From assembly GCA_029204225.1 (NCBI GenBank), contig CM055094.1, positions 18,656,708 to 18,720,707 of the forward strand: DNA of 64,000 nt, read 5' to 3'. Made by a program: the position numbers and the translations under genes. This document shows, in pieces, positions 2,309 through 60,897 of this stretch (position 1 is the first letter of the stretch; the number at the start of each line of letters is the position of its first letter). The DNA is from Diphasiastrum complanatum. Its lineage: Eukaryota; Streptophyta; Lycopodiopsida; Lycopodiales; Lycopodiaceae. The notes beneath the pieces were generated by a model that saw only the letters and a list, made by a program, of their open reading frames with translations, did no database searches and was not told the origin of the DNA.

Positions 2309-2321
2309 TGGTATCAGAGCC
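2309..2321 (+). promoter_or_regulatory. Primer binding site, tRNA-iMet
   Basis: TGGTATCAGAGCC begins two bases after the LTR end (2307). It is complementary to the 3' end of plant initiator methionine tRNA, the standard primer for minus-strand synthesis in these elements. Confidence 0.9.
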
Positions 2322-7881: not shown

Positions 7882-7892
7882 GGGGGAGGGAC
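7880..7892 (+). promoter_or_regulatory. Polypurine tract
   Basis: AAGGGGGAGGGA immediately precedes the 3' LTR (7893). It is the plus-strand primer site and overlaps the stop codon of pol. Confidence 0.85.
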
Positions 7893-8250
7893 TGTTACGA
7901 GCTCGTAACCAATGCCGAACCCTAGAGAACACAGATAGGTCAGATACCACAGTCAGGGTCATGTCCAGCGTACATGACCAATAGGGCAAGACAGTGTGAA
8001 TAGTGTGCCCCAGCACGGTCCATAGCCATGGCGGGCCTAACACAGCCTAGGGACCCTGTCAGCAGGATAGGGCCCCCAGTTGGGTCCCGACGTGCAGTCG
8101 GCCACGTCAGTGCCACGTGGCCGACACTTGGTAGTAGCATGCTACCAGTCCTCACACTGGGCTAGGAGGGGCTTACTCTATATCAGGGAGTAGGCAAGGT
8201 TGGGTGGATCAGTGAGTGTTTGCCCTACTGTGGTGTTAGAATCTATTACA
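7893..8250 (+). repeat. 3' LTR of the chromovirus
   Basis: 358 bp, TGTTACGAGC ... ATCTATTACA. It is the partner of 1949-2307, and the GTTTA target duplication follows at 8251-8255. Confidence 0.95.
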
Positions 8251-8255
8251 GTTTA

Positions 8256-31778: not shown

Positions 31779-34700
31779 ATGGCTTCCAATGGTGGGATCA
31801 TGCTAGAGTCTAGTGAAAGGTTGAGTTCATCAAACTACTCTACTTGGAAAGTGAGGATGGAGTCCTTACTTGAGTTGAATGAACTCATGGACATAGTTGC
31901 AGAAATTGAAGAGAGACCTCTCACACTTCAAGAGCAACAAAGGTTTGATAAGAAGGCCAAAAGGGCTCTTCATATCATTAAAATGAATGTTACAAATGAA
32001 CTTCTCAAGGAAGTTGGAAAGTGTCAAAGTGCAAGTGAGGCATGGAATGCCTTAAAGAAGCTCTTTGAATCAAAGTCCACATCTAGGGTATTGACCCTAA
32101 GGAGACAAATATTTTCTAGTAGGCAAAGAGAGGGTGAAAGTGCTCATGCATTTATCTTGAGAGTTAAGTCCCTAAGTGATGATTTAGCATGCATTGATGA
32201 GAACATAAAAGATGGTGAAATAGTCCAAGTTATGTTGAATGGTTTGCTAAATGAACATGCTAACCTTGTGCAAAGTTTTGCCATTCAAAGAGTCTTGCCA
32301 AGTGTGGTTGACTTGCAAGAAATCTTATTGGCTGAAGAACATAGGTTGCAATCAAAGCTTGATGGTGCATCCTTGCAAGGTGGAGGTGAAGAGGCTTTCT
32401 TCACAAAAGGCAAATTCAAGGGCAAAGGTAAAGGCAAAGGGAAATGGTCCAAAGGTGGTAACTTTGATCATGATGATCACTCTTCCTCTTCCTCTTCTAC
32501 TAAGAACAATAAGTCAAAGTTCAAGTGCTTTTATTGTGGGATAAAAGGTCATTTTGCAAATGAATGTTATAAGAAGAAAAGAGAGCAAGGAGAGAGGCAA
32601 GGAAATCTTACAATAGATGAGGAAGAACATAACACATGTGAATCACTTGTTATGACTTCAAGTTTGTTAGCCAACATAGATGATAATGATCCTTGGTGGA
32701 TTGATAGTGGAGCCTCATCTCACATGACAAGACATAAGGAATACTTTACATCCTTATTGTCTTATGAGGGAGAAGGTAACATCATCTACACTGCAAATGA
32801 TGGTCAATGTGACATCAAAGGCATAGGCACTATTCCTATTTCCCTTTCAACAAATAGGAAACCAAATCTTGAAAATGTTTTGTACATTCCTTCAATCACT
32901 AAGAATTTGCTTAGTGTAAGTCAAATGATTGACAAAGGACTTGATGTGGAGTTCATTGGAGATGCATGTTTGATAAGTAAATGTGGATCCTTGATTGCTC
33001 AAGGTAGGAGGCATGGTAAACTTTTCAAGCTTGATGCATGTGTGATCTCTAATCATGAAGGATGTATGGCTAGGGAGCAATTGACAAACCAAGAAGTTTG
33101 GCACAAGAGGTTGGGCCATCCCAACTTCAAATCTTTGGAGGTAATGGCAAAGAAAGAGCTTGTTCTTGGTCTCCCTAAAAGTCTTGTTGCAAACAATAGT
33201 GTTTGTGAACATTGTGCCTTGTCCAAATCTCATAGACTTGCTTATTCTAGATCTACTTCTAGATCTAAAGAAGCTTTTCAACTTGTGCATTCTGATATTC
33301 ATTCTTCTAGTACAACTAGCAATGGTGGGGCAAAGATGTATGCAACTTTCATTGATGACTTTAGTAGGTATACTTGGATCTATCTTCTTAAAAGTAAGGA
33401 TGAAGTGTTTGCTGCATTTGTCAAGTTCAAGAATGAAATGGAAAACCAATTCAATACAAAGATCAAATGCTTAAGATCTGATAATGGAGGGGAATACACC
33501 TCAAATAGGTTCAAAGACTTTTGTATAGCACATGGGATTAAGAGGGAGATGTCTAGTCCTAGGACTCCACAACAGAATGGAGTGGCCGAGAGGAAGAATA
33601 GAACCCTTTGTGAATGTGCCAAGGCAATGAGACTACATGCTAATCTTGCTAAGTCTTTTTGGGGGGAAGCTTTAGCATGTGCTAACTATCTATGTAATAG
33701 ATGGACAAGTGCTTCCTTGGATGGTAAAACTCCTCATGAGGTTCTTTATGGTAGAAGGCCGAGTGTCAAGCATTGTAGGATCTTTGGATGTACATGTTTT
33801 GTCAATATCACACTTGATGATAGAACTAAAGAAGATCCTTCATCAAAGAAGGGTGTGTTTGTTGGCTATAGTGAAGTAAGCAAGGCTTACAAAGTGTACA
33901 TTCCTTCTACAAAGAAAGTTGTCATAAGTAGGGATGTCATCTTTCATGAAGAGAATGTTTCCAATGTTGTTGATGTTGATGTTGATGTGCCTACTAATCA
34001 TCATGATGTGCAAGATGTCTTGGATGAAGATGGAGATGCCACTCCAAAGCAAACTTCAAGGAAGACTCAAAGGCAAAGGGCTAAGCCATCAAGGCTAACC
34101 TATGATGAAAAAGGAAAGCAAGTGGTGGACAACTCTAACTTTGCTTTTCTTACCTCTTTTGATGAACCAACTTGTGTAGGTGAAGCAAATCAAAAGAAGG
34201 AATGGATCCAAGCCATGGATCATGAGCATCAAGCACTCATCAAAAGCAACACATGGAGGTTGGTAAAGCTTCCAAAGGACAAGAAGGCAATTGGTTGTAA
34301 GTGGATCTTCAAGATCAAGACAAATCAAGATGGATCAATCAACAAGTACAAGGCAAGGTTGGTGGCAAAGGGGTATGCTCAAGAATATGGTATTGACTAT
34401 GATGAGACCTTTGCACCCGTGGCAAAGATGGTAACTATTCGAATCCTAATCTCTCTTGCAACTCTTTATGATTGGGATATGTGGCAAATGGATGTTACTA
34501 ATGCCTTCTTGAATGGTGATCTTGAAGAAGATATTTACATGGAGCAACCCGAGGGCTATGTTTCACATGATGAGCCTAATCATGTGTGCTATCTCCAAAA
34601 GAGTTTGTATGGGCTAAAGCAAGCACCAAGGAGTTGGTATGCTAAGCTCAATTCCTTCTTACTTTCTCAAAACTTTGTTATGAGTGAGTATGATCATTCT

Positions 34701-35732
34701 CTCTACTTTAGATTGAATGAAAATGATATCACTTTACTTTTGATCTATGTTGATGACATTATCTTAAGTGGTGGTAACAATCTAGATATAGATGAAATCA
34801 AGATGGCACTCAAAAGAGAGTTTGAAATTCAAGATCTTGGTAAACTTCATTATATCTTAGGAATAGAGATTATTAGAACTTCTAGATCTACATTCATATG
34901 TCAAGAAAATTATGTTAACTCTATTCTAAAAAGGTTTCATATGGAAGATTGTAAAGTTGTTTCTACTCCTATGGAATCAAATGTAAAGCTAACTACAAGA
35001 AGTAATGAAAGATCCTTCAAGGACATTACTCTCTATAGAAAGCTAATAGGATCTCTTATATGGTTAACCATCACAAGACCTGATCTAAGCTTTGTGGTTG
35101 GTAAACTAAGTCAATTTATGCAAGATCCTAGTGAGGCTCATTGGAAGCTAGGAAAGAGAGTACTTAGATACATCTCGGGATCTAGAGATTTTGGCATCTT
35201 GTATGGAGGTACTACACCTAACCTTTGTGGATTTTCAGATTCAGATTTTGCAGGTGATCAAATGGATAGGAAGTCAACAAGTGCCTTTGCAATCTATCTT
35301 GGAGATGGAGTGGTCTCATGGCTATCAAAGAAGCAACCAACTATCTCTCTATCTTCCACCGAAGCCGAGTACAAGGCATTAACAACATGCACCAAGGAGA
35401 TTCTTTGGATCAAGAGGATGTTATTGGATCTTCACTTGCTGGAACCAGAGAAGACTCCAATCATACTTTGTGATAACCTTTCAGCCCAAAGCTTGGCAAG
35501 CAATCCTGTTTTTCATGCAAGCAGCAAGCACATTGAGATTGCTCACCATTTTGTGAGAGATCAAGTCATTGCCAAAGAGGTGGAGCTTCAACATGTCTCT
35601 TCAAAGGAGTGTGTGGCTGATATCTTCACCAAACCATTGGGAAAGGACCTATATTTAATGCATAGATCTAATCTTGGAATGTGCTCAAAGACTATGTTGA
35701 AACTAGCATCCAATGTTGAAGAGGGAGTGTGA
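31779..35732 (+). CDS. Copia gag-pol polyprotein, intact, 1317 codons
   Basis: One open frame encodes the whole Ty1/copia polyprotein. The gag (UBN2-like) domain is about residues 10-200, with SNYSTWKVRMESLL at its start. A Lys/Gly-rich stretch and the CCHC knuckle CFYCGIKGHFANEC lie near 249, and the protease DSG (WWIDSGASSHM) near 307. The integrase has the H-H-C-C zinc domain (HKRLGHPN ... CEHCALSKSH) at about 441-485 and the catalytic triad in LVHSDIH, RSDNGGEY and NGVAERKNRT. RT has catalytic YVDD near 990 (LLIYVDDIILS). RNase H has SDSDFAGD, SLSSTEAEYKAL and SSKHIEIAHHF. All key residues are present. The stop TGA (35730-35732) lies inside the first bases of the 3' LTR. Gag and Pol are in one frame, as usual for plant copia. 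Confidence 0.97.
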   Translation: MASNGGIMLESSERLSSSNYSTWKVRMESLLELNELMDIVAEIEERPLTLQEQQRFDKKAKRALHIIKMNVTNELLKEVGKCQSASEAWNALKKLFESKSTSRVLTLRRQIFSSRQREGESAHAFILRVKSLSDDLACIDENIKDGEIVQVMLNGLLNEHANLVQSFAIQRVLPSVVDLQEILLAEEHRLQSKLDGASLQGGGEEAFFTKGKFKGKGKGKGKWSKGGNFDHDDHSSSSSSTKNNKSKFKCFYCGIKGHFANECYKKKREQGERQGNLTIDEEEHNTCESLVMTSSLLANIDDNDPWWIDSGASSHMTRHKEYFTSLLSYEGEGNIIYTANDGQCDIKGIGTIPISLSTNRKPNLENVLYIPSITKNLLSVSQMIDKGLDVEFIGDACLISKCGSLIAQGRRHGKLFKLDACVISNHEGCMAREQLTNQEVWHKRLGHPNFKSLEVMAKKELVLGLPKSLVANNSVCEHCALSKSHRLAYSRSTSRSKEAFQLVHSDIHSSSTTSNGGAKMYATFIDDFSRYTWIYLLKSKDEVFAAFVKFKNEMENQFNTKIKCLRSDNGGEYTSNRFKDFCIAHGIKREMSSPRTPQQNGVAERKNRTLCECAKAMRLHANLAKSFWGEALACANYLCNRWTSASLDGKTPHEVLYGRRPSVKHCRIFGCTCFVNITLDDRTKEDPSSKKGVFVGYSEVSKAYKVYIPSTKKVVISRDVIFHEENVSNVVDVDVDVPTNHHDVQDVLDEDGDATPKQTSRKTQRQRAKPSRLTYDEKGKQVVDNSNFAFLTSFDEPTCVGEANQKKEWIQAMDHEHQALIKSNTWRLVKLPKDKKAIGCKWIFKIKTNQDGSINKYKARLVAKGYAQEYGIDYDETFAPVAKMVTIRILISLATLYDWDMWQMDVTNAFLNGDLEEDIYMEQPEGYVSHDEPNHVCYLQKSLYGLKQAPRSWYAKLNSFLLSQNFVMSEYDHSLYFRLNENDITLLLIYVDDIILSGGNNLDIDEIKMALKREFEIQDLGKLHYILGIEIIRTSRSTFICQENYVNSILKRFHMEDCKVVSTPMESNVKLTTRSNERSFKDITLYRKLIGSLIWLTITRPDLSFVVGKLSQFMQDPSEAHWKLGKRVLRYISGSRDFGILYGGTTPNLCGFSDSDFAGDQMDRKSTSAFAIYLGDGVVSWLSKKQPTISLSSTEAEYKALTTCTKEILWIKRMLLDLHLLEPEKTPIILCDNLSAQSLASNPVFHASSKHIEIAHHFVRDQVIAKEVELQHVSSKECVADIFTKPLGKDLYLMHRSNLGMCSKTMLKLASNVEEGV
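35718..35727 (+). promoter_or_regulatory. Polypurine tract, family C
   Basis: GAAGAGGGAG immediately before the 3' LTR; it is also coding (the final residues of pol). Confidence 0.85.
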
Positions 35733-41551: not shown

Positions 41552-42377
41552 TGTTGAATTTCACACGTGTGGATTGTCCACTACATGTACTTGTGATCTC
41601 CTAAGGTGTGTAGATGCACCAAGATCAAGACTAGATTGAGATTCAAGATCTATCTTTGATTCTATGGCAAAAACACACTACTACATGCATTCAATCACTT
41701 CCAACTCTCACTCACACGTGTGGGAAGTGTTCCAAGAGTATTCTAAGTAAAAACAAGCTGCTCTCCTCGGGTAGAGAGAGAAAAACCATCATGAGCTCTC
41801 GGGTAGAGAGAAAAAGCTAGAAATTCAATGACACTCAAAATCCACTCAATCTCAAAATCAATTAGATCCAAAATGAGGAGTACAATGATACTAGTAGATC
41901 CACGAGCTACCACTATGCTTACTATGATTGGACCACACTTTGTCACCTCTTAATCCTATTGGGCCATTGATCCATGCACCTCCTAATTCTATTGGACTAT
42001 ATTCAAGCACACCTCAGATTCCTATTGGACCACACATGGTTCCACCTCTAAATCCTATCGGACCTCTTAAACTTCATCAAACAAAAGCATTGCACTTGTC
42101 TACACTCTCATTGGCACGAGTTTAGCCTCTTACTCTATTTTGGCTCAATAGTGGCATTACAAGTGGAAATGGATAATTTGCCATCTATGCCAAATTTGAC
42201 CCTATCAACATTCTAAACCTAAATGCTTGACTATGAAATTCTATGAGACCCCTATATCAAACATTTTGATTTACTTTACAATTCTCCACAAGTGGGAACA
42301 TTCTCCACACATGTGAGATTCACTCACAAACTTCTATCATAGAAAATACCAAGCTAGATTTTTGCCAATTTCTCACA
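41552..42377 (-). repeat. Copia LTR related to family C, minus orientation
   Basis: Minus-strand start TGTGAGAAATTGGCAAAAAT resembles the family-C LTR start. The other end is TGTTGAATTTCACACG on the plus strand, preceded by TCATACCA, a decayed primer site, so this would be the 5' LTR of a minus-strand element. Inside are G-box-bearing CACACGTGTG motifs and a minisatellite. The internal region to the left is truncated. Confidence 0.55.
41946..42080. repeat. Minisatellite, about 33-35 bp unit
   Basis: Four degenerate units built on CCTCTTAATCCTATTGG(G/A)CC within the LTR. A plus-strand frame with repeated LNPIGP-like residues reflects it. Confidence 0.75.
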
Positions 42378-42383
42378 CTTGGG

Positions 42384-42893
42384 TCTCATATACAGAGCTG
42401 AAAAGGAATTCATGACAGGATATGCAGACTCTGATTGGGAGGAGACCGAGATGATCGAAAGTCTACAAGCGGATACATATACATGATGGGTGGATCCTGC
42501 ATAAGTTGGAGCTATAAAAAGCAACCCTATACAACTCTATCAACAACAAGATCCGAGTACATGGGTGTTTGCCACACAACAAAAGAATATTTGTGGATGC
42601 AAAGCATGCTAGGAGAACTGGGAATTGACAGCACGGACATGGTGCTGTATAATGACAATCAGAGGTGTTTGTTTCTCAGCAGGAATGCTGGATTTCACAA
42701 GAAAAGCAAACACATAGCCATGCAATACCATTTTGTCAGAGACTTGGTGCATGAAGAAAGACTGAAACTAAAGTTTTGTAGCACTGATTTCATGCTTGCG
42801 GATATAATGACTAAACCACTAATTAAAAGTTGTTTTGTTTATTTGAGGAATATGATAGGATTAGAAAACCTGAATGATGCTTTTAGAATGTAG
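42384..42893 (+). pseudogene. Copia RNase H C-terminal fragment
   Basis: Plus-strand GYADSDW, then after a 1-base loss DDRKSTSGYIYMMGGSCISW, TLSTTRSEYMGV, KKSKHIAMQYHFVRD and MLADIMTKPL, ending in a stop. This is the end of a copia polyprotein (Thr-Thr-Arg in place of the usual Thr-Glu-Ala catalytic stretch). The upstream pol is gone: an LTR of another element abuts at 42377. No 3' LTR was recognised downstream. Truncated and dead. Confidence 0.85.
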
Positions 42894-43600
42894 CTATGGA
42901 GGGCTGTGAAGTGAGAGAGGATTTGTGGCCATTTAACGACACTTCACAGTCGGATGAAACTAGAACAGACAGTTAGGAGTTAAAGACACGTAAGCATAAG
43001 TTTATCCTGATGTCAAGCAGGACATGTAGGCAAAAGTGCCTTCCTAGCATTGATGATGTTTTGTGCATATAATGGATAATGAATAGAACGGATGTACGCT
43101 TTTGGGTAATCTTTGTCTTTGCAATTTGCTTGATGTGATTGCTTTGTGATTATTGCGAATGATTGAAGATCTTTGCTTTTGCTTTTTATTTTGTGTTCCG
43201 TCCTAGCCAAAGGAATTCTGACACATAGATCACAATGACGTCCGACATAATCTGTATTATGGTTATGATGGAGGGTGACCGCCTGGTACAATGCCCTTCT
43301 TTTAGGAATAACACTGGCTCCATTCCTATGCTATGCCGATTTTGGCGTTACCTCATTCCCAAATTCTCAAAAACATTCCCGTTCACAGAGGTCACGTTCC
43401 CATTACGTTCCCGTTCCCTGCCAATATGCCACTCAGTCAAGTCGCTGGCAACATAACATTGGACCCGTCACGACACATGGGGCATTGGTGCCACAACTCG
43501 ACAAATGGGAAATATATTGAGGATCCAAATTTGTATTTCCACATCCGTAAAATCATTTTTCAAATTTTTACAAAGGAAATGGTGGTGCCTCACAGAACGT
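42894..43600. other. Intergenic DNA
   Basis: No gene. A small hairpin, CTGTGAAGTG ... CACTTCACAG, lies at about 42903-42950. Confidence 0.45.
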
Positions 43601-43631
43601 AATCTGTGGGGCAAATTTTTTTATGACAAAT

Positions 43632-43720
43632 TTTTTTTGCAGGCACCTTCCAGCGTTCGGAAGGTGCACGTAAAAAATTTTGTCATAATTTTACACGCAC
43701 CTTCCACCCGGAAGGTGCTT
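43632..43720. repeat. Nested short inverted repeats GCACCTTCC/GGAAGGTGC
   Basis: Two consecutive hairpins share the same arms, at about 43640-43667 and 43697-43717, joined by TAAAAAATTTTGTCATAATTTTA. It resembles the termini of a foldback or MITE-like element. Confidence 0.7.
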
Positions 43721-43772
43721 GGTAAAAACATTTACCTTTAAAAAAAAAATGTGAAAATTGAAGTCACGCGGC

Positions 43773-43884
43773 GGAAGAGCCGGCTCCTCGGCCCTTCAGC
43801 CCGGGGAAGGATGCCACGACCTCGGGCCTCTGCCCTCACGCGCATCACCTTCCCGGGCGGAAGGGCCGAGGAGCCGGCTCTTCC
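43773..43884. repeat. GC-rich inverted repeat with 37-38 bp arms
   Basis: The left arm 43773-43810 (GGAAGAGCCGGCTCCTCGG...) is nearly the exact reverse complement of 43848-43884, with a 37-bp loop; I see one substitution and one indel. It is strikingly GC-rich against its AT-rich flanks and would form a very stable hairpin in DNA or RNA. Confidence 0.9.
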
Positions 43885-44101
43885 CTCCCCCATATAATTC
43901 TGAATAAAAAAAATGCGAAACGCCCGTGCCCAAGCCCCCACTTCCCATTCTCTCTCTCTCTCTAAATAACTCTCTAAATAAGGGAACGGGGGTGCAGATG
44001 GTAGTTAATGCCATAGCCATCTGAGCCCCCCCCCTTTCCTCAGGTGCCCCCCCCCCCCCTTTCTCACGCACCCCCCTTCCTCTCCCGCCCACCTTCTTCC
44101 A

Positions 44102-44218
44102 TGCGATCTCCTCCCCCGCCCACCTTCTTCCCCACGAGTGTTCTTTGGTTTTGTGCTAGCGCGATCTCCTCCCCCACCCACCTTCTTCCCCACCAGTGCT
44201 CTATGATTTTGGGCTATC
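44102..44218. repeat. Tandem duplication of about 57 bp
   Basis: The unit beginning GCGATCTCCTCCCCC(G/A)CCCAC occurs at about 44102-44159 and 44160-44218 with a handful of substitutions. Pyrimidine-rich, no coding evidence. Confidence 0.8.
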
Positions 44219-44952
<734 letters not shown>

Positions 44953-46019
44953 GTCTAGTCAAATATTTAAACTCATCATTGTAGATTTTATGCTCTTGTT
45001 TCTCAAAATCTAAGATTTACTACATTTTTTGTCGCTCACAAATTTGTCGATATGCATCTCTACTTTAGCAACTGTATTCTTGTTTTGCAGACATGGGAAC
45101 TATCATTGAATCATCTTCCACACTTTTGGAGCATTCAAATGCATCAATTCTTCTAGAAATGGACATTGTAGTTTCTGAACGGGTTGACGTATCTAATAAA
45201 AATATGTGGTATATTGAATTAGTAGGACCAAATCAAGAAAATGGAGATATTTTTTTGTTTATGGATCTTGGTACTGGTGAATTCAAATGTTATGAATGCA
45301 TGCTTAACATGGAAACTATTATTTCTGCACAAGGAATTCCATGTTGTTTGCATGTGTTGAGCATCAACGTCAGAAGGACATACAAGGTTTGGAGTTACAA
45401 TTTGCATCGTATGCTCCTATTAAGATGGTTTAGGGTTTGAACAATATCGAGGGGTCCATGTCTCAAATGGGTTGGAAGATACCAAACTATACAGATCATA
45501 TTGATGAATCTGGTATCACGTCTACTGACGATATTGTTATAGGTTTCAAGAAAGTAAAAGAAATGCAATTGCGCACTGGAAAAGTACCAAGCTCAAGGGT
45601 TATGAAAAATGTTATCAAAGATGCTTTGAAAGGAAAATCTCACGAATTGATAACCAACAATTTTTTTTTGAAGAGGAGTGTACACTTGACAAAAATAGAG
45701 ATAGAAGAATATGTAACAATGTGCGAAACAAAAAAACCCACAAATAACATCACTACAAGCATAGTCAAAAAAGGGAGGAAGTCTTCAAAAACAACACTAC
45801 CGGATGTGATTAATAAAAATCCGTCAAAAAAAAGTAGAAAATCTACTAATACCAAAGAAAGAATTGTGGAAAATGTATCAAGCAAACATACTGAGATGGG
45901 GTCTTCGAGTGCATTGATTTCTATGCCTGCTTCAACTACAATTTCAGAAAGAGCACATGAAGTCCTAAACAAAGACTTTGGTGTTTCTAGTACAAGTCGG
46001 ATCTTGAGTGGTAGCAAAG

Positions 46020-46516
46020 GCCAGATTTGGTGGGATCAGTTTAAAGACATGTATCCTTTTGGTATGGAAAAGACGTTCCAAATTCTGGTTTCTATATGTG
46101 ATCCAGCTGATGTCCACATTGTGTATAGGCCTTTAAATAAGCACCACCTTCATCAACTAATGATCGCATTTGCAAAAAAACCACATTCGGTTGACATGAT
46201 TGCTGATCTTGTTTTATATGATGGTAGAACAAGAAGAATGCTGAACAAAGATGAAATCAAAGAAGAAAGACTTCTCTCTTATATATACTACATAATCCCA
46301 GGACAACATTCAATTACGGCTGCAAAAAAGCTATTGGAAGTACCTCATTGTCCATCACATTTCATGAAATTTTTTGGTCATAGAACATCTAGAATATTGT
46401 GTGCTCAAGATGCTATTAGGTTTGTTAAGCTTTCAAGGACACAAAACGAATTGCATCAAGCAGTGTTAAAGAAAACACCATATCAAGATGCACTTACTCA
46501 AGCTCGTCAACAATGA
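46020..46516 (+). pseudogene. ParB-like segment of the multidomain gene
   Basis: The frame open from 45437 to 46516 carries near its end DPADVHIVYRPLNKHHLHQL, then ADLVLYDGRTRR, then YIIPGQHSITAAKKLLE. The arrangement resembles the ParB/sulfiredoxin fold: an N-terminal residue list with preferred action sites, then a strand and a GxxR/S-x-x-AAK box comparable to GERRxxAAK in ParB. The box here is GQHSITAAK, so the usual Arg pair is absent. Upstream is a Lys/Ser-rich basic linker (KKGRKSSKT, SKKSRKSTNTK) that could bind DNA or act as a nuclear signal. The assignment is from pattern memory. Confidence 0.5.
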
Positions 46517-46718
46517 GAGCATTATGGCTGTCTAGCAAAGCCAATTAGGGGACACTCCACAATGGATACAAAGTGGACGATATGTCTAATTTTTGTTATT
46601 TGATTATAAGGGCTTTGTTTTGTGTTTTTTGAAATTTTTAGATTAATGCTATTAAGTATGTAATATTTGTTATTTTACTATGTGAATTAATCCTTTTGTC
46701 TGATGTCTTGTGTAGGAA

Positions 46719-48371
46719 TTTATTGATACGGTCAAACTAACAATGGAAAAAATGAGCATTAAGCATGATATGCATATGATCCTTTGTGAGAGATCTTTGT
46801 TCAATAGATGGATTACAATCATGGACAACTATGCTGCTGGACAACTGGCAGGCATTACTGGAAATTTGTGTTCATTGCGTTCTGAAAAAGATGGTGACAA
46901 AATACTGGCCGACGGAACCACACCTCTCAGTGCTAGTTTGTTTCGTTGTATTCAAGGTTTGATGGAAGCTGAAATATACAAGATACAAGATCAAATCCTT
47001 CGAGGTAAAATTCTTTTGAAGAGAATAAAAACTCTAAAAGACCACGAGGACATGGAGGATGTTGCTCTCAAGTACAAATATAACAGGGTTTTGAAAAGTG
47101 CAATATGTGACTTTTTGGGAAATCTTTCGGGCAATAAGAGCTTAGTGTATGACGAAGTAGAGAGAAAGTATGGAATACAATAAGGTACATACAAAAAAAT
47201 GTACAATTGTAGTGCTGAGTGGATGAAAAACGCTATCAACAAAACAAAAAAGAAAGCATAATTGCCAGAAACTGTGCAAATAGACTTACAATTGGCCTAT
47301 GCCAGGGTGTTTGGAATACAACAATGCACTCTTGAAAAACCATGGAAAATATGTAATGCTGGACCTATGCTATCATGTTTTACTGAAGTGGTTGCAGCTT
47401 GTGGAAATGGCAACGATATCGGCTTGGTTATCTTAGATACAACCTCACAAGGAAAAGATGTCGAATGGACGATAGAGTCATTTAAAAGGTTGGTTGATTG
47501 TATTGCGAATATCCACTCAGGTGATTCATATGTTCTTATTGTGTTTGTTCCATATGGTCCTTCGTTGTATCATCCAGAAAACACCTTGAAACACATAGTT
47601 CATTTTCTATACAATATGGATCATATACCAAGGGAAACATGCATACCAAAAAGTATATACTCAATCATGATCTTTGTATAGTTATGGCATTCATATCCAA
47701 GACAAAAGAAAAAAAAGATTGGAAAGGTATAATAGATATTGGTGGCAATCAAATGCCATCCATTATCTACCAGGAAGTTGAACATGATGTTGGTGAAGAC
47801 ACTATGGCCGATGCGGAGTTGTTAGAAGAAAAATCAAAAGCTACAATTTTTGATAAGCCAATTCTTTATGAACAATTCCTCCTTGTTGGAGGAGGAATAA
47901 GCAAATATCCTAAGGATCGTCAACTGTATGTCAATATAATCTCTTCGTTTTGTCCCAAAGGAAAAGTGGTAATCGATGCTTATACTAGAGGATATGGTAT
48001 GAGAGAAGCATTACGAAATGAAAGAAATACAATCACCTTTGTAAATAGCTCATGTGAAAAAGATTTTCTCAAGGGCTATTGTTCTATGATGGTTGATGCT
48101 CTTTCAGAAGTAAAATTTTCTATAGAAGCGCAAGTTTGCACAAGGACCACATAAGGATAATGTCACAATAGACGATGCACATGAAAAACTTTTCGAAGAC
48201 TTCTTGAAATCATTGGATCAAGAATCACAAGATCTCCAGGTTTACGATATCCAAAAAGATACTTTGTATGAAGATCCAAATTTCAATGCTAGTAGAGAAT
48301 TTTCTGTGGAGGCCAATATACCTATGGGCATTTCACAACAATTACTACAAGAAGAACAGGTAGATACATAG
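46719..48371 (+). pseudogene. Permuted DNA-methyltransferase-like segment
   Basis: After an acceptor (TGTGTAG at about 46707-46713) comes a helical region (FNRWITIMDNYAAGQLAG ...). Then IGLVILDTTSQGKDVEWT and SYVLIVFVPYG sit where motif IV (DPPY) and the next strand of a beta-class N4/N6 methyltransferase would be. They are followed by DKPILYEQFLL (like motif X, KPxxL) and KGKVVIDAYTRGYGMREAL (like motif I, VLDxFxGxG). The IV-X-I order is that of circularly permuted DNA methylases. DTTS in place of DPPY suggests no catalysis. Two TAA stops and frameshifts interrupt it. Bacterial and phage ParB-methylase fusions are known in general, which supports the pairing; the plant context is what is odd. 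Confidence 0.45.
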
Positions 48372-48742
48372 TTAGCGGGATCTACGATAAGAGACAAAAT
48401 AAATTTCTTTTTGATTACGTTGTTTATGTTCAATCTTTTCATTATATTGGACAAGGATGATTATATGAATTTGTTTTTTGAGCTACAAGATTAAAATTCA
48501 CTATTTGTTAGTTCAATTATTGTTGGTCTCTTTAAAGTATTAACTTGACTTCTTGTCCTTTACAATACACGTAGCACTTTGAATTATAATTTTAACTATA
48601 CATTCTAAAATTTCACAAAGTTAAAAATCACAATTTAAATGATCTTTTAAAATTTACTTGGTAGTTTATAAGTTTTATGATTTACTTTTGTAAATATGAT
48701 ATTAGTCATGATTTGATATATCACTTTAAATATGTTTTTCAG
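48360..48742 (+). other. Intron joining methyltransferase-like and phosphatase exons
   Basis: Donor CAG|GTAGAT and acceptor TTTTTCAG|GT, 383 bases, AT-rich with stops in all frames. Phase 0 on both sides (GAAGAACAG | GTTCAAAAG), so splicing restores a continuous frame. Confidence 0.65.
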
Positions 48743-49690
48743 GTTCAAAAGACCAGACATTATGATGATAACATGTATATTATCTTAGATCTAAATGGCA
48801 TTCTTTTAAAATGATGGGACAAACATCCTGGCTTGAGAAATATTCACAAATTTCAAGGAAAGTGGATACAGCTATGCCTAGGATGGTTGGAGTTTCTTAA
48901 CAAACTTTTATCATTGTTTAAAGTTGTAATTTGGTCAACAATGGCTTACAAAAATATTTTGAGCATATACTCTTTCATGGAGCGGCAAGCTAGGCACAAA
49001 ATACCATTGTTTATGATATGGGGCAAGGAGAATTGCTATCAACAAAAAGATATTATTAGACCAGATAAAAATAATTTTATTGCTGACTTCAAACCTTTGT
49101 GCTTTGTTTGGAAACATTTTTGTTCAGACTTAAATAATCATAATACAATATTAGTCGACAACTCACCATACAAAGCATGTATGAACAATCCATTCAATTG
49201 TATTTTTCCAGAAACATTTGATGGATATAATGATGACAATTACCTCAATGATGTGTTGTGGACATATTTGGACAGATTGAAAATGACTTATGATGTTCAA
49301 ACATACATCAAACAAAGTCATATTGGTCAACGACATGTTCATGAGAATCACTCCCTTTATGGTTATTTGAGACCTATAATTGAAAAATTTCAATGGGAAT
49401 CCAAATCTTTGCTATGTCAAAATGGTGTTTCACTACACGTTGCAGTATCAGAAGACCAAAACAAAGCAAATGTCCAATCCATATACGAGGAACTTGATGC
49501 CGAACAGATAGAGCTACTATACGGCATTGCATTGGTCTATCCTTACTGGAATTCAAAGATAATGTCACGAGGTGAAGCACTTACTTTTGCAATGCATTTG
49601 GGTTTGAAGAAAGAGCAATTTTCCGAGCAAGATGCAAGAGATTATATCAAATCTCTTGTGTTCAGGTGGAAAAAAGAAACGGGAACTTGA
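48743..49690 (+). pseudogene. FCP1/SCP-like HAD phosphatase exon
   Basis: The exon begins after TTTTTCAG at 48742. Motif 1 is YIILDLNGILL (48776-48808), the plant NIF-type variant of DxDGT with Asn at the second Asp. An in-frame TGA at 48812-48814 follows, then WDKHPGLRN, FLNKLLSLFKVVIWSTMAYK (motif 2), FWK-like PLCFVWKHF and TILVDNSPYKACMNNPFNC (motif 3, DNSPxK). This is a full NLI-interacting-factor fold. A C-terminal extension of about 110 residues (SLYGYLRPIIEKFQW ... YPYWNSKIMSRGEALTFAM) matches nothing I know. Family members dephosphorylate the RNA polymerase II C-terminal domain or related substrates; loss of the second Asp would compromise this. Confidence 0.8.
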
Positions 49691-50167
49691 TTCCACCATC
49701 GAAGTCACCAATTTGTGTGTGCGCAAACATTGCCAGCTATTTCAAATTTGATCTCTTATTCATATGAGCTTCACAAATGATTTGTGTTTTGTGCAATGTA
49801 CAATATTATAGTTTTAAAATAAAAATTCCAATTTTTACATGCAAAGTGTTGTGGATATGTTCTTTTAATAGATGAGTTAAATCTATGTTATTTCAAAGAT
49901 TTACACAATCAATTCTCCATGAAAAAAAATTCTATCAATTACGTTATTTGCTATTTAGAGATAAGAATTTTGTATTATTATTTTCATTAAACTTGAATTA
50001 TATTTCGAGAGGTATCTCGAAAACAAACATTTAAATACATGGATAAAAATTTGTCATAAAATTTATGATTTATTTTTTAACAATAAATGGAGTAAGAAAA
50101 AACAAACTTCCCAAGACCACAATAAGCGATACAAGAAAACAATTCTTTCATAAAAATTTATTTGGAG
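49691..50167. other. AT-rich intergenic DNA
   Basis: No gene between the phosphatase stop and the (CA)n tract that marks the end of the CACTA fragment. Confidence 0.5.

Positions 50168-50196
<29 letters not shown>
50168..50196. repeat. (CA)n microsatellite
   Basis: A 29-base CA tract. Confidence 0.95.
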
Positions 50197-50198
<2 letters not shown>

Positions 50199-50214
50199 AA
50201 TGCACCATTTTTGC

Positions 50215-51205
50215 ATGCATTTGTAAACTAAAAACTAGTATAAGAATATTATAATTTGCCAAGCAAACAGGCCAAATGGACCACGTAGTTGCTCGTACAC
50301 CAAAGGGAGTCACACCATTTGTTGCAAGACCAAATCTCACATTTCTTGACTCATTGGCAAAGCTTGGATACTCTTTGGTGATGTGTTTCCATGCAGGTGA
50401 ATCTGAAGGTACCCTCATCATCCCATTCGTAGAGGTATGGTGTGCATGCCAGTCCATAAGTTGTGCAAGAGATTTACAATGAAATAAACGTTGCAATCGT
50501 GGAATATTGGAAAATGTCGTAAAACTTTGCACGGAATGGTTGCCCCTTGCAAATCATCTCTATATCGAGGAGTATCACAAATGGGACATTTCTTGAGTGA
50601 TTCGTACCTTCCTCGATATAAAATACAATCTTTTGGACATGCATGATATTGCTTGTAGTCCATCCCGATGTTAGTCAACATCTTTCGTGCCTCATCTCTT
50701 GTCTCAGGCATGACATTCCCTTCTGGGAGAATTTTGTTTTTCAATAGTCTGTACATGACAAAAGAAGTCATTGTAAAAAAAATATCACTTGATGTCCAAA
50801 TTGTAAATTTTGTTTCAAAGAAAAAATAACAAGTAGATGAAAAAAAATTTACTCAAATAATGATGTGAGGCTTTGGTCACTCCATCTATATTTGGCTTGA
50901 AGATTTAATAGAAGTAGAGAAGTCGCCAAACGAGATGTCTTTGTTCCAGGATACAATGCGGTCTTTGATTCTTCTCGCAATTTTCTTTCTTCTTTAGACA
51001 AAAGTGCCTCCTCATCTTGTTCATTGTGTCTAGCTGCAATATTGTTCTCGTACATATCATCCAACATGTCTCCCATGACTTCAAATTCATCATTCATTGG
51101 AAGCTCATTTTCATCGTTGGAACTTGTTTGCGAATAAGTAGATCTAGATGAGCTAGATTCAGATGCATTAGTCTCTTGATTAATGCGCTCATCAATTTCC
51201 ATCAT
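50215..51205 (-). pseudogene. CACTA (En/Spm) TNP2 transposase, N-terminal half
   Basis: Minus-strand exon 51205-50849 reads EALLSKEERKLREESKTALY, YPGTKTSRLATSLLLLNLQA and YRWSDQSLTSLFE. After an intron of about 80 bases, KNKILPEGNVMPETRDEAR, DYKQYHACPKDCILYRG and CPICDTPRYRDD follow. After a frameshift near 50530 come IPRLQRLFHCKSLAQLMDWH, SDSPAWKHI, RFGLATNGVTPFGVRATTWS and WPVCLANYNI. These are the characteristic opening blocks of plant TNP2. The sequence stops being recognisable at about 50215, so the catalytic DDE part is missing. A pseudogene of a truncated CACTA element. Confidence 0.88.
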
Positions 51206-51744
51206 CTCTTTTAAGCCTTGACGTAGAAGACATGTAATTGCTTTATATGTGGACCGTTTTATTGCATTCGTCGTCTACGTCGACCATTACGAGGATTATT
51301 GTCTCCAACACTAAATGAGGATGAAGAATCCTATATATCAAAATAACAAGAAGTAGGTTGAAACAATGCTTGATAAACATTTCCTCCCAATACTTGATAG
51401 ATCTAAATGTTGCATATGAATTTAAATTATCTCTTAGTTTAAAAAGTATGAACATACCAATGTATCTATTAGACAGATTTGTCTTTTCAACTTGTTAACA
51501 TTCAATGAATGCAAAGACAAATAATGCTCCTAACATTTAATCTAGGCAAATGACGAATAATGCTCCTAACATTTGACATATTTAATGACACAAACCAAAT
51601 ACAATCAAGATGCATGGATTGTACATCTCTCCATATCAACAAAATTTAAATCTTCACATTTGACTTATTGTCTTTTGCAAACATTTGGGTAGAGGACGGT
51701 TGAAACTATAATTGATGAACAATTCCTCCCCAAACCTGATAGAT
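51206..51744 (-). other. Spacer between SET-like segment and TNP2
   Basis: Mostly unreadable; a short Arg-rich stretch (NGRRRRR) lies near 51270-51290 on the minus strand. Probably an intron or degenerate linker of the same unit. Confidence 0.35.
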
Positions 51745-52190
51745 CTAGTGGCCCTTTACATTCCTAGTGAAATATTCTTCTTTTCCATTGGTGCATTCTT
51801 CAAAATCACAATTCGTCAATAGAGGGTGGCCAAAGGAACTATTTATATATGCAGCAATGTTTCCATGCACATTTGGACGTCCATCAGTACGATTTGCCCT
51901 TGAGATGTTGCCTCCTTGCATGCGTTGCTCCTCTAAAGAACAAGCATTTGAATTCAAGCCATATACTTGCATCCTCCATTGGTGACGACAAAAAGCATGC
52001 CAATCACCCCAATTGTATTGAGGTCCTGCATATGGCATCAATGTCACAACACTATTTAAGGGGACCTCAATACTACTCAATGCAAAAAGGCCCAAACCAG
52101 CCTCAGGAAAGTGTTCACTAGGCATGATCATGTACATTCGACCCCAATATGTAAATGGTGTTTTGGTAATGGTGATTGGAGTGGCCAACA
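51745..52190 (-). pseudogene. SET-like domain fragment
   Basis: The minus-strand frame of 148 codons contains HFPEAGLGLFALSSIEVPLN, VTLMPYAGPQYNWGDWHAF and GRPNVHGNIAAYINSSFGH followed by TNCDFEECTNG. This follows SET-domain logic: G-x-G-x-F near the start, a tyrosine-rich GP.Y.W.DW stretch, then GN.A.YIN for the R(F/Y)(I/V)NH motif and Asn-Cys after it. The C-terminal catalytic Tyr strand is missing or lost after NVKGH. SET proteins methylate lysines; here the His of NHS is Ser, so activity is doubtful. It sits between pieces of a CACTA transposase unit in the same orientation. Confidence 0.5.
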
Positions 52191-52640
52191 CGAATATCTA
52201 CTTCTAATAAAAGTTTTTACTAATGGTTGCAAGCTAGGTGGAAGAGGAAGGTCAAACAAAGAACCTAGAATGTCTTTTGACACATCAACAGTGCGTAGTA
52301 GTTTGCAATTATCTTTCAAACTAGTCATAATACGTCCAAGACGTGTTCTCTTTTTTAAAGGGGTGGTCGAGTTTGTGGAATCCACATGGAGTATCGTGGA
52401 GGACTCATGTGCAACATCTAGGATAGGTGTGGTTGGGTGGTAAGAACGTTCTAGAGATTTGGAGACATGGATTGAATCACAAGGCATTGATGAACTAATT
52501 ACATCATGCAAGGGGTCATCATCAACAAGAGCATCATCTAGGGCCAATGATGATCCAAAATCAATATTCATGTGATTTATCCTATCAATAATATTCTCGA
52601 TCTCTCTTGCAACTCTTTTTCTTGTAACCAACTTATGGTT
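52191..52640 (-). pseudogene. Unidentified coding segment upstream of the SET-like fragment
   Basis: Open minus-strand frame reading IENIIDRINHMNIDFGSSLA, DDPLHDVISSSMPCDSIHVS, KKRTRLGRIMTSLKDNCKLL and LFDLPLPPSLQPLVKTF. Normal amino-acid composition and no stops suggest real coding ancestry. It is out of frame with the SET-like segment at about 52150-52190. No family recognised. Confidence 0.4.
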
Positions 52641-52660
52641 GCAAATGTTAGATGTATCAG

Positions 52661-52672
52661 TCTCTCTCTCTT

Positions 52673-52752
<80 letters not shown>
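52661..52752. repeat. (CT)n microsatellite
   Basis: 92 bases, slightly interrupted at its left end, followed by a short (CA)-rich imperfect tract at about 52809-52845. Confidence 0.92.
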
Positions 52753-52755
<3 letters not shown>

Positions 52756-53090
52756 CATGAAACATAAATTAATATATAACACAAACCGTAAACCAGTAGC
52801 ATGAAACACACACAAACACACGCACGCACACACACACCCACCCACACCGACCCTAGACACATAAAGAGAAAAACAAAGAGAACATTATAGAGTGCTAATC
52901 AAAACTCCCAAGCCACACGATTATATCCTACTCCAAAATGTCACCACATGCTCCCTCCCTGCGGCGTTTGGGCTTTTTTGTGGAACTCATCTTCCAACAA
53001 AAAACATTTGAACCACGCCTTTAACGGAAGAAAAAAAGGGCTACACACCTTCCTAGAATTGGGAGTGTTGGTTACCTTTAACTCTTTCAT

Positions 53091-53092
<2 letters not shown>

Positions 53093-53184
<92 letters not shown>
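53093..53184. repeat. (CT)n microsatellite
   Basis: 92 uninterrupted bases. Confidence 0.95.
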
Positions 53185-53187
<3 letters not shown>

Positions 53188-53227
53188 CGTGAATGAGTCT
53201 ATTATGGGTGATTGAATATGGAAATAA

Positions 53228-57546: not shown

Positions 57547-60500
57547 TCAACAAACTTTAAGTACATAAAGCTTTGATCTAAATTTATCAAACTTTTCTCC
57601 AGTAAGTGACTTAGTGAAAATATCAGCTAGTTGTTCTTCTGTGCTACAATGAACAACATGAATTTCACGACTCAGTAGCCTCTCACGTATGAAGTGATAC
57701 TGAATCTCAATGTGTTTAGTTCTCGCATGGAACACTGGATTCTTTGCTAGCTGAATGCCACTCTGACTGTCGCTATGTAAAGTTGTGGGATTTTTCTGCT
57801 TTATGCCAATTTCTTCCAAGATTTGTCTCAACCATATAGCTTCTTGTGCAGCACTACACATTGCCTTATACTTTGCTTCTGTGGTGGAAAGAGCAATTGT
57901 GCTTTGCTTCTTACTAGACCAGGAAAAGCAACTACCACAAAATTGGAATATATATCCTGTGGTGGATCTACGATCATCATAGTCACCTCCCCAGTCCGCA
58001 TCCACATAGCCACACAACTCAGGTAAACCATCATGCTTCCTGTAAATCAAGCCATACTCTGAAGTGCCTTTCACATAACGCAAAATGCGTTTAGCTGCCT
58101 TCCAATGTGTTTCTGTAGGTGCTGCCATAAGTTGACTTACAATGCCAACATCATAGCATATATCTTGTCTAGTCGTGGTAAGGTAAATCAAGCTCCCTAC
58201 TAACTGTCTATATAGCGTAGCATCAAATGACTGTGACTTATCAAGCTTAGAAAGCTTTTTACCTGGTTCAATACAAGTGTTTACTGGTTTGCAATCCTGC
58301 AACCTAAACATGTGCAGCAACTCTTTGACATACTTCACCTGTGTTAAACCCACTTCATGTCCTTTTTGCCACACTTCTACTCCAAGGTAGTAATGCATCA
58401 GGCTGAGATCTGTCATCTCAAATTGTTCCATGAGGTCTTTCTTGATCATGTCTATCATCTCTTGATTATTTCCCTTAATAATGAAGTCATCAACATAAAG
58501 AGAAATCAAAGAAACCATACCATCAAAGCATAAGACATATAGATTTGGATCAGAATGTGTTCTCACCATCCCCTTTGAATGAAAGTAGGCATCAATCCTG
58601 CTATACCATGCACGTGGTGCTTGTTTAAGACCATAAAGCGCTTTCTTCAAGCGACATACTTTATTTTCCTGTCCTTTCGTTACAAAGCCTTCAGGTTGAT
58701 CCATGAACACTTCTTCTTCTAACTCACCATTTAGAAAAGCAGATTTCACATCCATCTGATGCAAAGGCCAACCAAAATGTGAAGCTAAAGCAATAAGTAG
58801 ATGTAGAGCATTCCAAACCGGTGCAAAGGTCTCATCATAGTCGATGCCTTTATTTTGTGCGTACCCTTTGATCACCAATCTTGCTTTGTGCTTTGCTATA
58901 CTTCCATCTGCATGGTACTTAGTCATGTAAACCCATTTGCAACCAATGGTTTTCTTGCCAACTGGTGGTTCTACTAAGTCCCATGTGCTATGCTTAGCAA
59001 TTGACTCCATCTCCTCTCCCATGACCTTGACCCAAATGTCATCATCCTTTGCTTCACCATAAGTCGAAGGTTCTTTGCTTTGAATAATGCTAGATAAGAG
59101 AGCATAATTTGATTCATACCTTTCAGGTAGTATCTTCTCTCTTGTTGATCTTCGTAGCTCTCCCTGGTTAGATGATCTTGGAAAGTCATCTATGTCGCGG
59201 CTCTCCATCAATCTTTCAAACCACTTAGGGAGCTTTCTGTTAGGTGATCGACATCCTGGTGAAAATGTATCCCACGGTACATCCTTCTCCTTGCGTTTGT
59301 CACCTGCAACTTCAATCCTTCTTGCACCAAAAGGTTTGTCCCTACCTCTCCAACATGTTTCTTGAGGTTGAGTAGTAGTATCTTGAGATGTATCCTCATG
59401 TTCATCACTCGGAAGGTCAATGAATGGATCATCATCAGGTGGTATCCTCACTATACCATGTTTCCCACTGGATGTGTCTATCTTCTCAGCATCCTTGTCT
59501 TCATACATCTTGGATTCATCAAAGATAACATCACGGCTTATATGAATTTTGTTTTCGATTGGATCAAAACATCTATAGCCCTTCACACGATCATCATATC
59601 CTAGGAATATGCACTTGATAGCTTTTACATCAAGTTTACGTCTCTCTTCCTTAGGAATGTGTACAAAGGCCTTACATCCAAAGATTCGCAAGTGGTTCAC
59701 CTTTGGCTTCTTCTTCGTGAATGCTTCCTCATGTGTTATCTTTGATATGGCAATGGTAGAGCTTCTATTTTGAAGATAGACTGTCGTGCTACATGCTTCT
59801 GACCAAAAATCTTTTGGTAGTTTCATCTCAACTAGCATAGATCTGGCACTTTCCACAATCGTACGATTCTTGCGCTCAGCTACACCATTGAGAGCAAGAG
59901 TATGAGCTTGTGTAAATTGTCTTTTAACCCCACATTGATCACAAAGATCATTGAAGTCATTAGACTTGTACTCACCTCCACTATCTGATCTTAGGACTTT
60001 GATCTTCCTACCTGTCTGATTTTTGACCAATGCTTTGAAGCTCTTGAAGTTATCAAATGCATCTGATTTTTTCTTCAAGAAGTAGATCCACGTTTTACGT
60101 GACATATCATCAATAAAGGTCATGAAATAGAAGGCTTTACCTAAGGACATGGTCCTCATAGGCCCGCATAAATTTGTGTGGATTAAATCCAGGATGTTCT
60201 TTGCTCTTGCAACACCCCCTTTATTGAACTTCTCTCGATGTTGCTTCCCATATTCACAAGATTCGCACATCGATTTCAAGTGATCTTCTATGGTAGGCAA
60301 TCCTATTACCATCTCAAATTTTCTCATCAAACTGAGGCTTCTCAAGTTCAAGTGACCAAGCCTCTTGTGCCACAACTCATTTTGCGATGGAATGGACGAT
60401 ACAAGTCCATGTTGCCCCTTGATTGTAGCATTCAACCTGTACAATTTTGTATTGGGCTCTCTTACTCCATCCGCAATAACTTTGAACTTTTGGTTCGCAT

Positions 60501-60897
60501 CCTTCACAAAGCAACGATCATGGGCGAATTCTACTTTCAACTTTTGATCAGTAATGACTCCAACAGAAAGTAGATTTTTCTTCAAACCTGGTATGTAAAG
60601 TACCTCCTTGATCATCCTGCTTTTGCCATCAGGTAGTTGGATTGAAACTGTGCCTATCCCCTTGATCATGCACACCTCACCATTTGCTTGTGAAACAGAT
60701 GTTCCATTATCCAACACCTTTAAACTACTGAACCAATTCTTGTTACCTGTCATATGTCTTGTGGCTCCTGAGTCAATATACCATGCTTGATCATCTTGAT
60801 TATATGACAATGCAGATATGAAGATGCTAGAGTCTTCAATCTCACCCTCATCGACAAGGTTACCTGCTTGTTTTGGTTTTCCCTTGTCTTGTTCCAC
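57547..60897 (-). CDS. Family-A copia pol, open frame of about 1116 codons
   Basis: Minus-strand frame, open further upstream than 60897 (that position is a GTG, not a true start). It encodes protease (WYIDSGATRHM), the integrase zinc domain (HKRLGHLNLRSLSL, MCESCEYGKQ), integrase core, RT with catalytic YVDD (LYVDDFIIKG) and RNase H (GYVDADWGGD, ALSTTEAKYKAM, KHIEIQYHF). In the core the first catalytic Asp is Asn (LIHTNLCGPM) and the segment before the Glu is unusual (TLALNGVAERKNRT for the common PQQNGVAE). RNase H has TEAK for the usual TEAE. So the frame is open but the integrase is probably inactive. It served here as the reference for the broken copy 1. Confidence 0.9.
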   Translation of the reverse strand: MEQDKGKPKQAGNLVDEGEIEDSSIFISALSYNQDDQAWYIDSGATRHMTGNKNWFSSLKVLDNGTSVSQANGEVCMIKGIGTVSIQLPDGKSRMIKEVLYIPGLKKNLLSVGVITDQKLKVEFAHDRCFVKDANQKFKVIADGVREPNTKLYRLNATIKGQHGLVSSIPSQNELWHKRLGHLNLRSLSLMRKFEMVIGLPTIEDHLKSMCESCEYGKQHREKFNKGGVARAKNILDLIHTNLCGPMRTMSLGKAFYFMTFIDDMSRKTWIYFLKKKSDAFDNFKSFKALVKNQTGRKIKVLRSDSGGEYKSNDFNDLCDQCGVKRQFTQAHTLALNGVAERKNRTIVESARSMLVEMKLPKDFWSEACSTTVYLQNRSSTIAISKITHEEAFTKKKPKVNHLRIFGCKAFVHIPKEERRKLDVKAIKCIFLGYDDRVKGYRCFDPIENKIHISRDVIFDESKMYEDKDAEKIDTSSGKHGIVRIPPDDDPFIDLPSDEHEDTSQDTTTQPQETCWRGRDKPFGARRIEVAGDKRKEKDVPWDTFSPGCRSPNRKLPKWFERLMESRDIDDFPRSSNQGELRRSTREKILPERYESNYALLSSIIQSKEPSTYGEAKDDDIWVKVMGEEMESIAKHSTWDLVEPPVGKKTIGCKWVYMTKYHADGSIAKHKARLVIKGYAQNKGIDYDETFAPVWNALHLLIALASHFGWPLHQMDVKSAFLNGELEEEVFMDQPEGFVTKGQENKVCRLKKALYGLKQAPRAWYSRIDAYFHSKGMVRTHSDPNLYVLCFDGMVSLISLYVDDFIIKGNNQEMIDMIKKDLMEQFEMTDLSLMHYYLGVEVWQKGHEVGLTQVKYVKELLHMFRLQDCKPVNTCIEPGKKLSKLDKSQSFDATLYRQLVGSLIYLTTTRQDICYDVGIVSQLMAAPTETHWKAAKRILRYVKGTSEYGLIYRKHDGLPELCGYVDADWGGDYDDRRSTTGYIFQFCGSCFSWSSKKQSTIALSTTEAKYKAMCSAAQEAIWLRQILEEIGIKQKNPTTLHSDSQSGIQLAKNPVFHARTKHIEIQYHFIRERLLSREIHVVHCSTEEQLADIFTKSLTGEKFDKFRSKLYVLKVC

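Follow-up and report, generated by a model that had tools for sequence, protein, structure and literature searches.

VANC anti-silencing factors are accessory genes of plant Mutator-like elements, and the repeat described here resembles them, by description only, as a nontransposase gene with introns in a multicopy plant element. In bdelloid rotifers, N4CMT is a eukaryotic nuclear, permuted beta-class amino-methyltransferase of bacterial or phage type that is joined to a eukaryotic domain, a chromodomain, and, in the excerpted text of its description, it keeps an SPPY tetrad and requires it for activity (PMC8885841). The ParB-methylase proteins of phages and bacteria, such as Bce_0392 of B. 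cereus, place an N-terminal part before a beta-class methylase (excerpts of PMC5512222). Here, we analyzed a stretch of 64,000 nucleotides from the lycopod Diphasiastrum complanatum (assembly GCA_029204225.1, contig CM055094.1, positions 18,656,708 to 18,720,707; hereafter the window), in which a broken plus-strand unit with a gene of at least three successive segments belongs to a plant repeat that is present in many scattered copies, this one being decayed. Our reading, which we hold at somewhat better than even, is that the accessory gene of a mobile element encodes a methylase-like domain, probably noncatalytic, linked to a HAD phosphatase-like domain. Among the systems compared, N4CMT is the closest precedent for a permuted methylase that has been captured and fused; unlike N4CMT with its SPPY, the segment described here reads DTTS, has a HAD partner, and belongs to a many-copy, decayed repeat. 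A plant repeat with methylase-like plus phosphatase architecture was not found in the portions of the open-access literature available to us, which is a weak negative.

A DNA query covering positions 45093 to 47000 of the window gave 44 matches in the species' own 1.74-Gb assembly, the window included (61 candidates, 40 scored). Identity was at least 90% for 27 of the 44, counting the window, and 72 to 83% for the other 17. A protein query, the segment 2 relative P0006, gave at least 80 matches at 26 to 53% identity, and these counts are a lower bound, as 75 of 393 candidates were scored. The matched stretch was free of stops in 13 of the 80 among those listed. However, one such match (L177) nonetheless shifts frame in segments 2 and 3, so a stop-free match does not equal an intact gene. 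The initial annotation of this DNA had looked to intact paralogues with all three domains; searches of the plant's own genome gave many copies but no intact copy of the whole gene among those examined, and both the multicopy state and the broken state of the unit go beyond what that annotation described.

The order of the segments is preserved among the copies. Ten near copies were taken from the 44 DNA matches and chosen for holding segment 1; besides segment 1 (10 of 10), eight have at least a portion of segment 2 and six a portion of segment 3, each located downstream of segment 1 with the order unchanged. C4 is heavily decayed, and its segment 2 match comes from another copy, which is inverted and much more diverged. 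Three divergent or open members (L177, L178, and L179), hand-picked from the 80 protein matches at 5 kb each, all carry segments 1, 2, and 3 in order within 5 kb, at identities of 27 to 58% for segment 1, 25 to 47% for segment 2 (to P0006), and 33 to 59% for segment 3. Judged by the protein relatives of segments 2 and 3 and by the order preserved in other genomic copies, the three-frame chain is beyond chance. The conserved order also makes a single gene with all three segments likely, as initially proposed. The features of the repeat copy, with the basis of each in parentheses, are as follows:

42377 to 44535, plus strand: left part of the repeat copy, common to C16, C20, C14 (in pieces), and C18 (to 44305)
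44535 to 44536, no strand: junction at which the window copy is without approximately 4 to 5.5 kb held by C16 and C20 (copy comparison)
45091 to 46575, plus strand: segment or exon 1, approximately 490 amino acids, broken, TTTTGCAG directly before it, right border not fixed (frames, copies)
46576 to 46715, plus strand: putative intron 1, 24% GC and 52% T, donor uncertain (composition)
46716 to 48359, plus strand: segment or exon 2, N-terminal part and methylase-like core (relatives P0005 to P0007, genomic copies)
47364 to 48107, plus strand: beta-class amino-methyltransferase-like core (profile comparisons)
47424 to 47450, plus strand: LVILDTTSQ, at the position of motif IV, which is DPPY in active enzymes (permissive alignment)
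47966 to 47998, plus strand: VVIDAYTRGYG, at the position of S-adenosylmethionine (AdoMet) motif I (profile alignments)
48360 to 48742, plus strand: putative phase-0 GT-AG intron 2 (composition, spacing in copies)
48743 to 49690, plus strand: segment or exon 3, NIF/FCP1-type HAD domain and C-terminal extension, stop at 48812 to 48814 (Pfam, relatives)
49691 to 50245, plus strand: 3' part of the repeat, truncated in the window approximately 80 to 90 bases before the terminus of other copies (copy comparison)

Every peptide quoted by the initial annotation was located in a plus-strand frame where it had been placed: the peptide called ParB-like, GQHSITAAKKLLE (46301 to 46339), LVILDTTSQ and VVIDAYTRGYG as listed, DKPILYEQ within the frame 47525 to 48154, and LDLNGILL, VVIWST, and VDNSPYK within the frame 48743 to 49690. 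The window copy is interrupted by stops at 45431, 46514, 47181, 47259, and 48812 and by frame changes near 45345, 47620, and 48110, leaving segment 1 with a frame change and two stops, segment 2 with two of each, and segment 3 with one stop. The frame changes are absent from some copies; for example, C15, C16, and C18 match segment 1 in one frame across 45345, and C14 matches segment 2 in one frame, with three stops.

Segment 3 is homologous to the NIF/FCP1 family, and the FCP1-like identity initially given to it held up. The Pfam NIF model (PF03031) matches the window segment at an E value of 2e-10 and 41 bits, over its cutoff of 21.8, and also matches P0001 (9.5e-16, 58.3 bits), P0002 (7.3e-15), and L179 (8.5e-13, 48.7 bits). 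Four protein relatives were hit among 383 candidates, namely, P0001 (95% identity), P0003 (47%), P0002 (44%), and P0004 (28%), the last being a HAD protein of the orchid Apostasia. The best solved relative of the segment 3 profile is UBLCP1 (E value, 1.8e-5), and matches to two NCBIfam models, HAD_IIID1 and dullard, are weak and stay under the cutoffs. The catalytic motif of NIF/FCP1-like HAD phosphatases is DxDx(T/V). The window, P0001, P0002, P0004, and L177 instead read DLNGIL or DLNGVL, and this replacement of the second catalytic Asp by Asn may have cost the domain its activity. Compared with NIF/FCP1/UBLCP1-type HAD phosphatases (PF03031, TIGR02245, P0004, and 3shq), segment 3 shares the Pfam match over cutoff, what we take to be motif II, and, in P0001, the DD of what would be motif IV; it differs in its D-L-N-G for D-x-D (as does P0004), its long C-terminal extension, and its location on a repeat.

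Segment 2 is supported as a remote relative of the permuted beta-class amino-methyltransferases, mainly by profile-profile comparison. A query made of segment 2 and a portion of segment 1 produced three hits among 6,455 candidates, all aligning to segment 2: P0005, P0006, and P0007 (473 to 604 amino acids), at 45, 40, and 45% identity, respectively. The hhalign target profile comprised 40 viral-contig amino-methyltransferases (seeds, E. coli YhdJ and a ParB-type sequence), against which three versions of segment 2 scored 44.2, 38.8, and 40.6 (probabilities, 78, 73, and 76%). Column shuffles, of which 60, 100, and 60 were run, reached at most 23.6, 24.6, and 18.2, respectively, and NIF and ParB controls scored 12.6 to 18.6. 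Against a narrower set of 22 methylases, the score was 38.1, with 30.7 for the best of 60 shuffles and 22.6 for the best of 60 local shuffles. In HMMER with this 22-sequence profile, 2, 5, and 0 of 1,000 shuffles were equal to or better than P0005, P0006, and P0007, respectively. Among families, P0007 met Pfam N6_N4_Mtase (PF01555) at an E value of 0.029 (14.8 bits; cutoff, 26.7), P0006 met a DNA methyltransferase model at 0.089 in the corresponding region of motif I, and core pieces matched N6_N4_Mtase as their sole Pfam family in two of P0005 to P0007 (best E value, 0.018). M.RsrI came first among solved chains compared with the core (E value, 0.86), at motif X/I. As to the motif order IV-X-I read by the initial annotation, a permissive alignment pairs LVLIDTT with motif IV and KPI with motif X, at low confidence.

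Several observations weigh against this assignment. No methylase match to segment 2 reached a curated cutoff, and full-length P0005, P0006, the C14 copy, and L179 gave no Pfam methylase match at all. The HMMER match of P0005 falls outside the core, the window's own segment 2 piece was equaled or bettered by 763 of 1,000 shuffles, and with a ParB-methylase profile 646, 709, and 59 of 1,000 shuffles scored as well. A ParB-methylase-only set gave hhalign scores of just 27.3 and 23.1 (probability, 2%). The aligned core spans just 42 to 61 columns, and the whole-length profile (A2) found no methylase among 27 weak matches in the Protein Data Bank, whose chains were dropped as noise at E values of 0.12 or worse. 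Pattern scans gave no prokaryote or virus relative of segment 2; two tblastn matches of P0007 to phages, at E values of 8 to 10, were discarded as noise.

The motif IV consensus (D/N/S)PP(Y/F/W) is lacking throughout: the window and P0005 to P0007 read DTTS or DATS, and the divergent copies read DMTS (L178) and DTQL (L179). Because the catalytic DPPY is replaced, the amino-methylation chemistry has probably been lost. What stands of the methylase claim is thus a remote relationship that exceeds shuffled profiles and that we take for true ancestry, but not a catalytic tetrad or a family match at cutoff. We suggest that this part might serve as a DNA- or AdoMet-binding module and not as an active methylase. 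The most divergent copy is L179 (reverse complement, 2036 to 3541 and 4057 to 4980), in which the motif I place has VVDLFCGGVALKEG and then VLTDME, with its acidic residues; by eye, this copy comes nearer to a standard AdoMet site than the family of the window does.

Segments 2 and 3 are likely parts of one protein, joined by splicing of a putative intron that begins after the last base of segment 2 at 48359 and occupies 383 bases. The spacing is 368 to 386 bases in the four of ten near copies with both borders (C15, C2, C3b, and C20). The donor GT is kept in all five copies with the stretch (those four and C16) and in the window, the region being deleted in C14 and missing in C18; at the acceptor, AG remains in the window and in four of five copies (C15, C2, C18, and C3b). 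The L177 sequence is FQ|VQQPKKHYHDELFLILDLNG and lacks a Met at the place of MYII in the window and P0001; this leans toward splicing but is weakened by an in-frame Met (VM) a few codons upstream. P0005 and P0007 read QAS at the end of exon 2, where a GC-type donor might lie, and across the acceptor of intron 1, P0006 reads LQ|EF in a manual alignment reading. The gap has 24% GC, compared to 34 to 36% in coding stretches; the downstream spacer also has 26%, so low GC in the gaps is insufficient on its own as proof of an intron.

The chief alternative, in which the repeat carries segment 2 and segment 3 as separate adjacent genes, is compatible with the rest of our explanation, and we regard it as possible though clearly the less probable arrangement. 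The segment 2 frame meets a stop 12 bases beyond the junction, which fits a natural C terminus, and in a manual reading, the C termini of P0005, P0006, and P0007 all lie only a few residues from the matching place. MYIILDLNG begins with an ATG in the window and P0001, the codon preceding GT is TAG in C2 and C20, and C20 has AA in place of the acceptor AG. In the divergent copies, the distance between the segment 2 and segment 3 matches varies from approximately 0.3 kb (L177) through 0.5 kb (L179) to 1 kb (L178). Set against these points, two genes would leave the spacing of 368 to 386 bases in the four near copies, the kept GT and AG, and the missing Met of L177 to be explained otherwise.

Codon-position differences between the window and copies approximately 80% alike bear on whether the segments were once constrained. 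Segment 1 differs at positions 1/2/3 by 50/43/75 from C3b, 24/29/42 from C11, and 28/33/57 from C13, and segment 2 differs by 6/15/26 from C11. These four comparisons, all sharing the window, sum to 108/120/200, and this third-position excess suggests constraint on segments 1 and 2 before decay. Young copies are without it (segment 1, 14/8/8 with C16; segment 2, 7/9/7 with C14). For segment 3, the window compared with C3b (32/27/33) showed no third-position excess, a point that counts against our reading; together with the values for C15 (13/8/10) and C18 (6/8/13), constraint is not demonstrated there.

As for how the repeat spread, the initial annotation had entertained carriage by a transposon. 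This holds insofar as the repeat is dispersed and decayed with a common right terminus, and we consider a DNA-level mobile element of unassigned class most likely, the DNA level being indicated by the retention of intron-like gaps in the copies. The common right terminus, a 17-base inverted pair plus approximately 11 bases, is found in C2, C14, C15, C18, L170, L172, and L174, whereas L171 stops short of it. The flanks beyond it are unrelated, except that C15 and C18 are alike for approximately 10 more bases and that L170 and L173 share a flank. On the other side of the balance, copy comparisons revealed no left end, no target-site duplication was found at the copies, and no transposase was seen, the frames of at least 100 amino acids in C16 positions 1 to 9300 (simple-repeat frames excluded) having been judged by eye only, as copia-like remnants and frames without assignment. 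Terminal inverted repeats were not seen across the unit, Rfam gave no match at the gathering threshold, and the idea that the hairpin at the right end is Helitron-like was dropped, no CTRR end being seen.

Alternatively, a host gene family could have expanded by segmental and satellite-linked duplication followed by decay, with no mobile element at all. The lack of a visible transposase and the shared flanks of L170 and L173 fit this scenario, as do C16 and C20, which match in pieces from C16 position 259 on, left flank included, and the proximity of C14, C18, C16, and C20 to a tandem repeat of approximately 360 bases. Nevertheless, dozens of copies lie spread over many contigs, and several have the common right terminus with unrelated flanks; we think expansion of a host family rather unlikely. 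The approximately 360-base repeat was located on the left side of all four copies, in C14 and C18 through self-comparison and in C16 and C20 through cross-matches (loci L150 to L159), and satellite-linked duplication may have spread some copies.

Segment 1 has no known domain in our reading, whereas the initial annotation saw a prokaryotic-type ParB-methylase module joined to an FCP1 phosphatase. The peptide GQHSITAAKKL does resemble the ParB GxxR motif, and L177 and L179 retain QHSI. Two ParB profiles were built, one from a phage-type seed with 80 relatives from viral contigs and one from a Spo0J-type seed with 10 plasmid ParBs; these were compared with a single window piece, with 11 further rows from the ten near loci, and with three divergent copies plus four near rows. 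The hhalign scores ranged from 10.8 to 17.7 and, wherever shuffles were run, did not exceed the best of them (14.9 to 20.8). The single piece scored 17.4 (without shuffles) and 14.6 (best of 100 shuffles, 20.8); with near-copy rows, the scores were 13.3 (best of 80, 20.4) and, for the second profile, 17.7 (without shuffles); the divergent copies scored 10.8 and 15.7 (best of 60 each, 14.9 and 20.3). Of six tries, three placed their top local match at GQHSI, two with the single piece and one with the divergent copies; both tries with near-copy rows and the second with the divergent copies placed it elsewhere. In HMMER, 441, 920, and 549 of 2,000 shuffles were equal or better.

Given the repeated match at GQHSI and the retained QHSI, a very remote ParB-like fold in segment 1 is conceivable, but these comparisons do not support it. 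The window segments, the C14 copy, and L179 gave no Pfam ParB match, protein database searches gave no relatives of segment 1, and the read-through of the whole unit matched nothing in the protein database with search words drawn from its first 500 residues. A SWIM/Mutator identity, suggested by eye from C..C...GIPC.H, had no Pfam match and was rejected. With DPPY absent as well, an active ParB-methylase module is improbable. Compared to the ParB-methylase proteins in the excerpts of PMC5512222, ParB is undetectable here, and the methylase signal is weaker against a ParB-methylase set than against a mixed one.

The unit includes a eukaryotic-type phosphatase domain beside a methylase-like one. 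A remnant of an endogenized eukaryotic DNA virus would suit the mix of phage- or bacterial-type methylase ancestry with a eukaryotic phosphatase, as bacterial- or phage-type genes mixed with eukaryotic ones are seen in large DNA viruses, but it is very improbable given that the unit has intron-like gaps, that viral-contig scans with segment 1 and 3 pieces and alignments A1, A2, and A4 (few patterns) gave no relative, and that no other viral gene was recognized, no search aimed at viral genes having been made.

The surroundings of the unit are rich in other repeats. The left part of the repeat copy begins inside what we take to be a copia-type RNase H remnant (peptide of the frame 42435 to 42893). 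At the 44535/44536 junction, the alignment jumps in C16 from 3787 to 7892 or 9263 and in C20 from 3943 to 8021 or 9396; the size of the missing piece is inexact because of diverged tandem units in these copies. Upstream of segment 1, C16 and C14 hold diverged tandem units at offsets of roughly 0.6 and 1.3 kb. Long CT/CA simple repeats occupy window positions 44830 to 44952 and 52660 to 53200. Right of the repeat (50418 to 52898, minus strand), minus-strand frames include, by eye, one plant-transposase-like and one SET-like frame; none of four frames there had a Pfam match above cutoff. Farther out, long open frames of 1,322 and 1,174 amino acids (31764 to 35732, plus strand, and 57547 to 61071, minus strand) are presumably copia-type polyproteins, and their openness makes some long terminal repeat elements in the window look young. 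Two overlapping frames of 898 and 747 amino acids at 3050 to 7881 (plus strand) are, we assume, gypsy-type gag-pol.

Returning to the mobile-element reading, the spliced protein could act as an accessory factor that helps the element to evade silencing or to engage host transcription, a mechanism that we offer as doubtful. More speculative still is the full scenario in which a lineage of plant elements captured a prokaryotic-type amino-methyltransferase and combined it with a CTD-type phosphatase of the host into a protein of three parts; this protein would bind the element's own DNA without methylating it and dephosphorylate host transcription or silencing factors, as an anti-silencing module of a new kind. 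Such repeats are open to annotation as FCP1-type host genes, and caution is warranted. If our reading is true, the permuted amino-methyltransferase fold would have been captured by a eukaryote in one further case, this time within a mobile repeat of plants and alongside a phosphatase-like domain to which it is joined; every member examined has a replacement of the catalytic tetrad, and what role degenerate modules play for an element would become testable.

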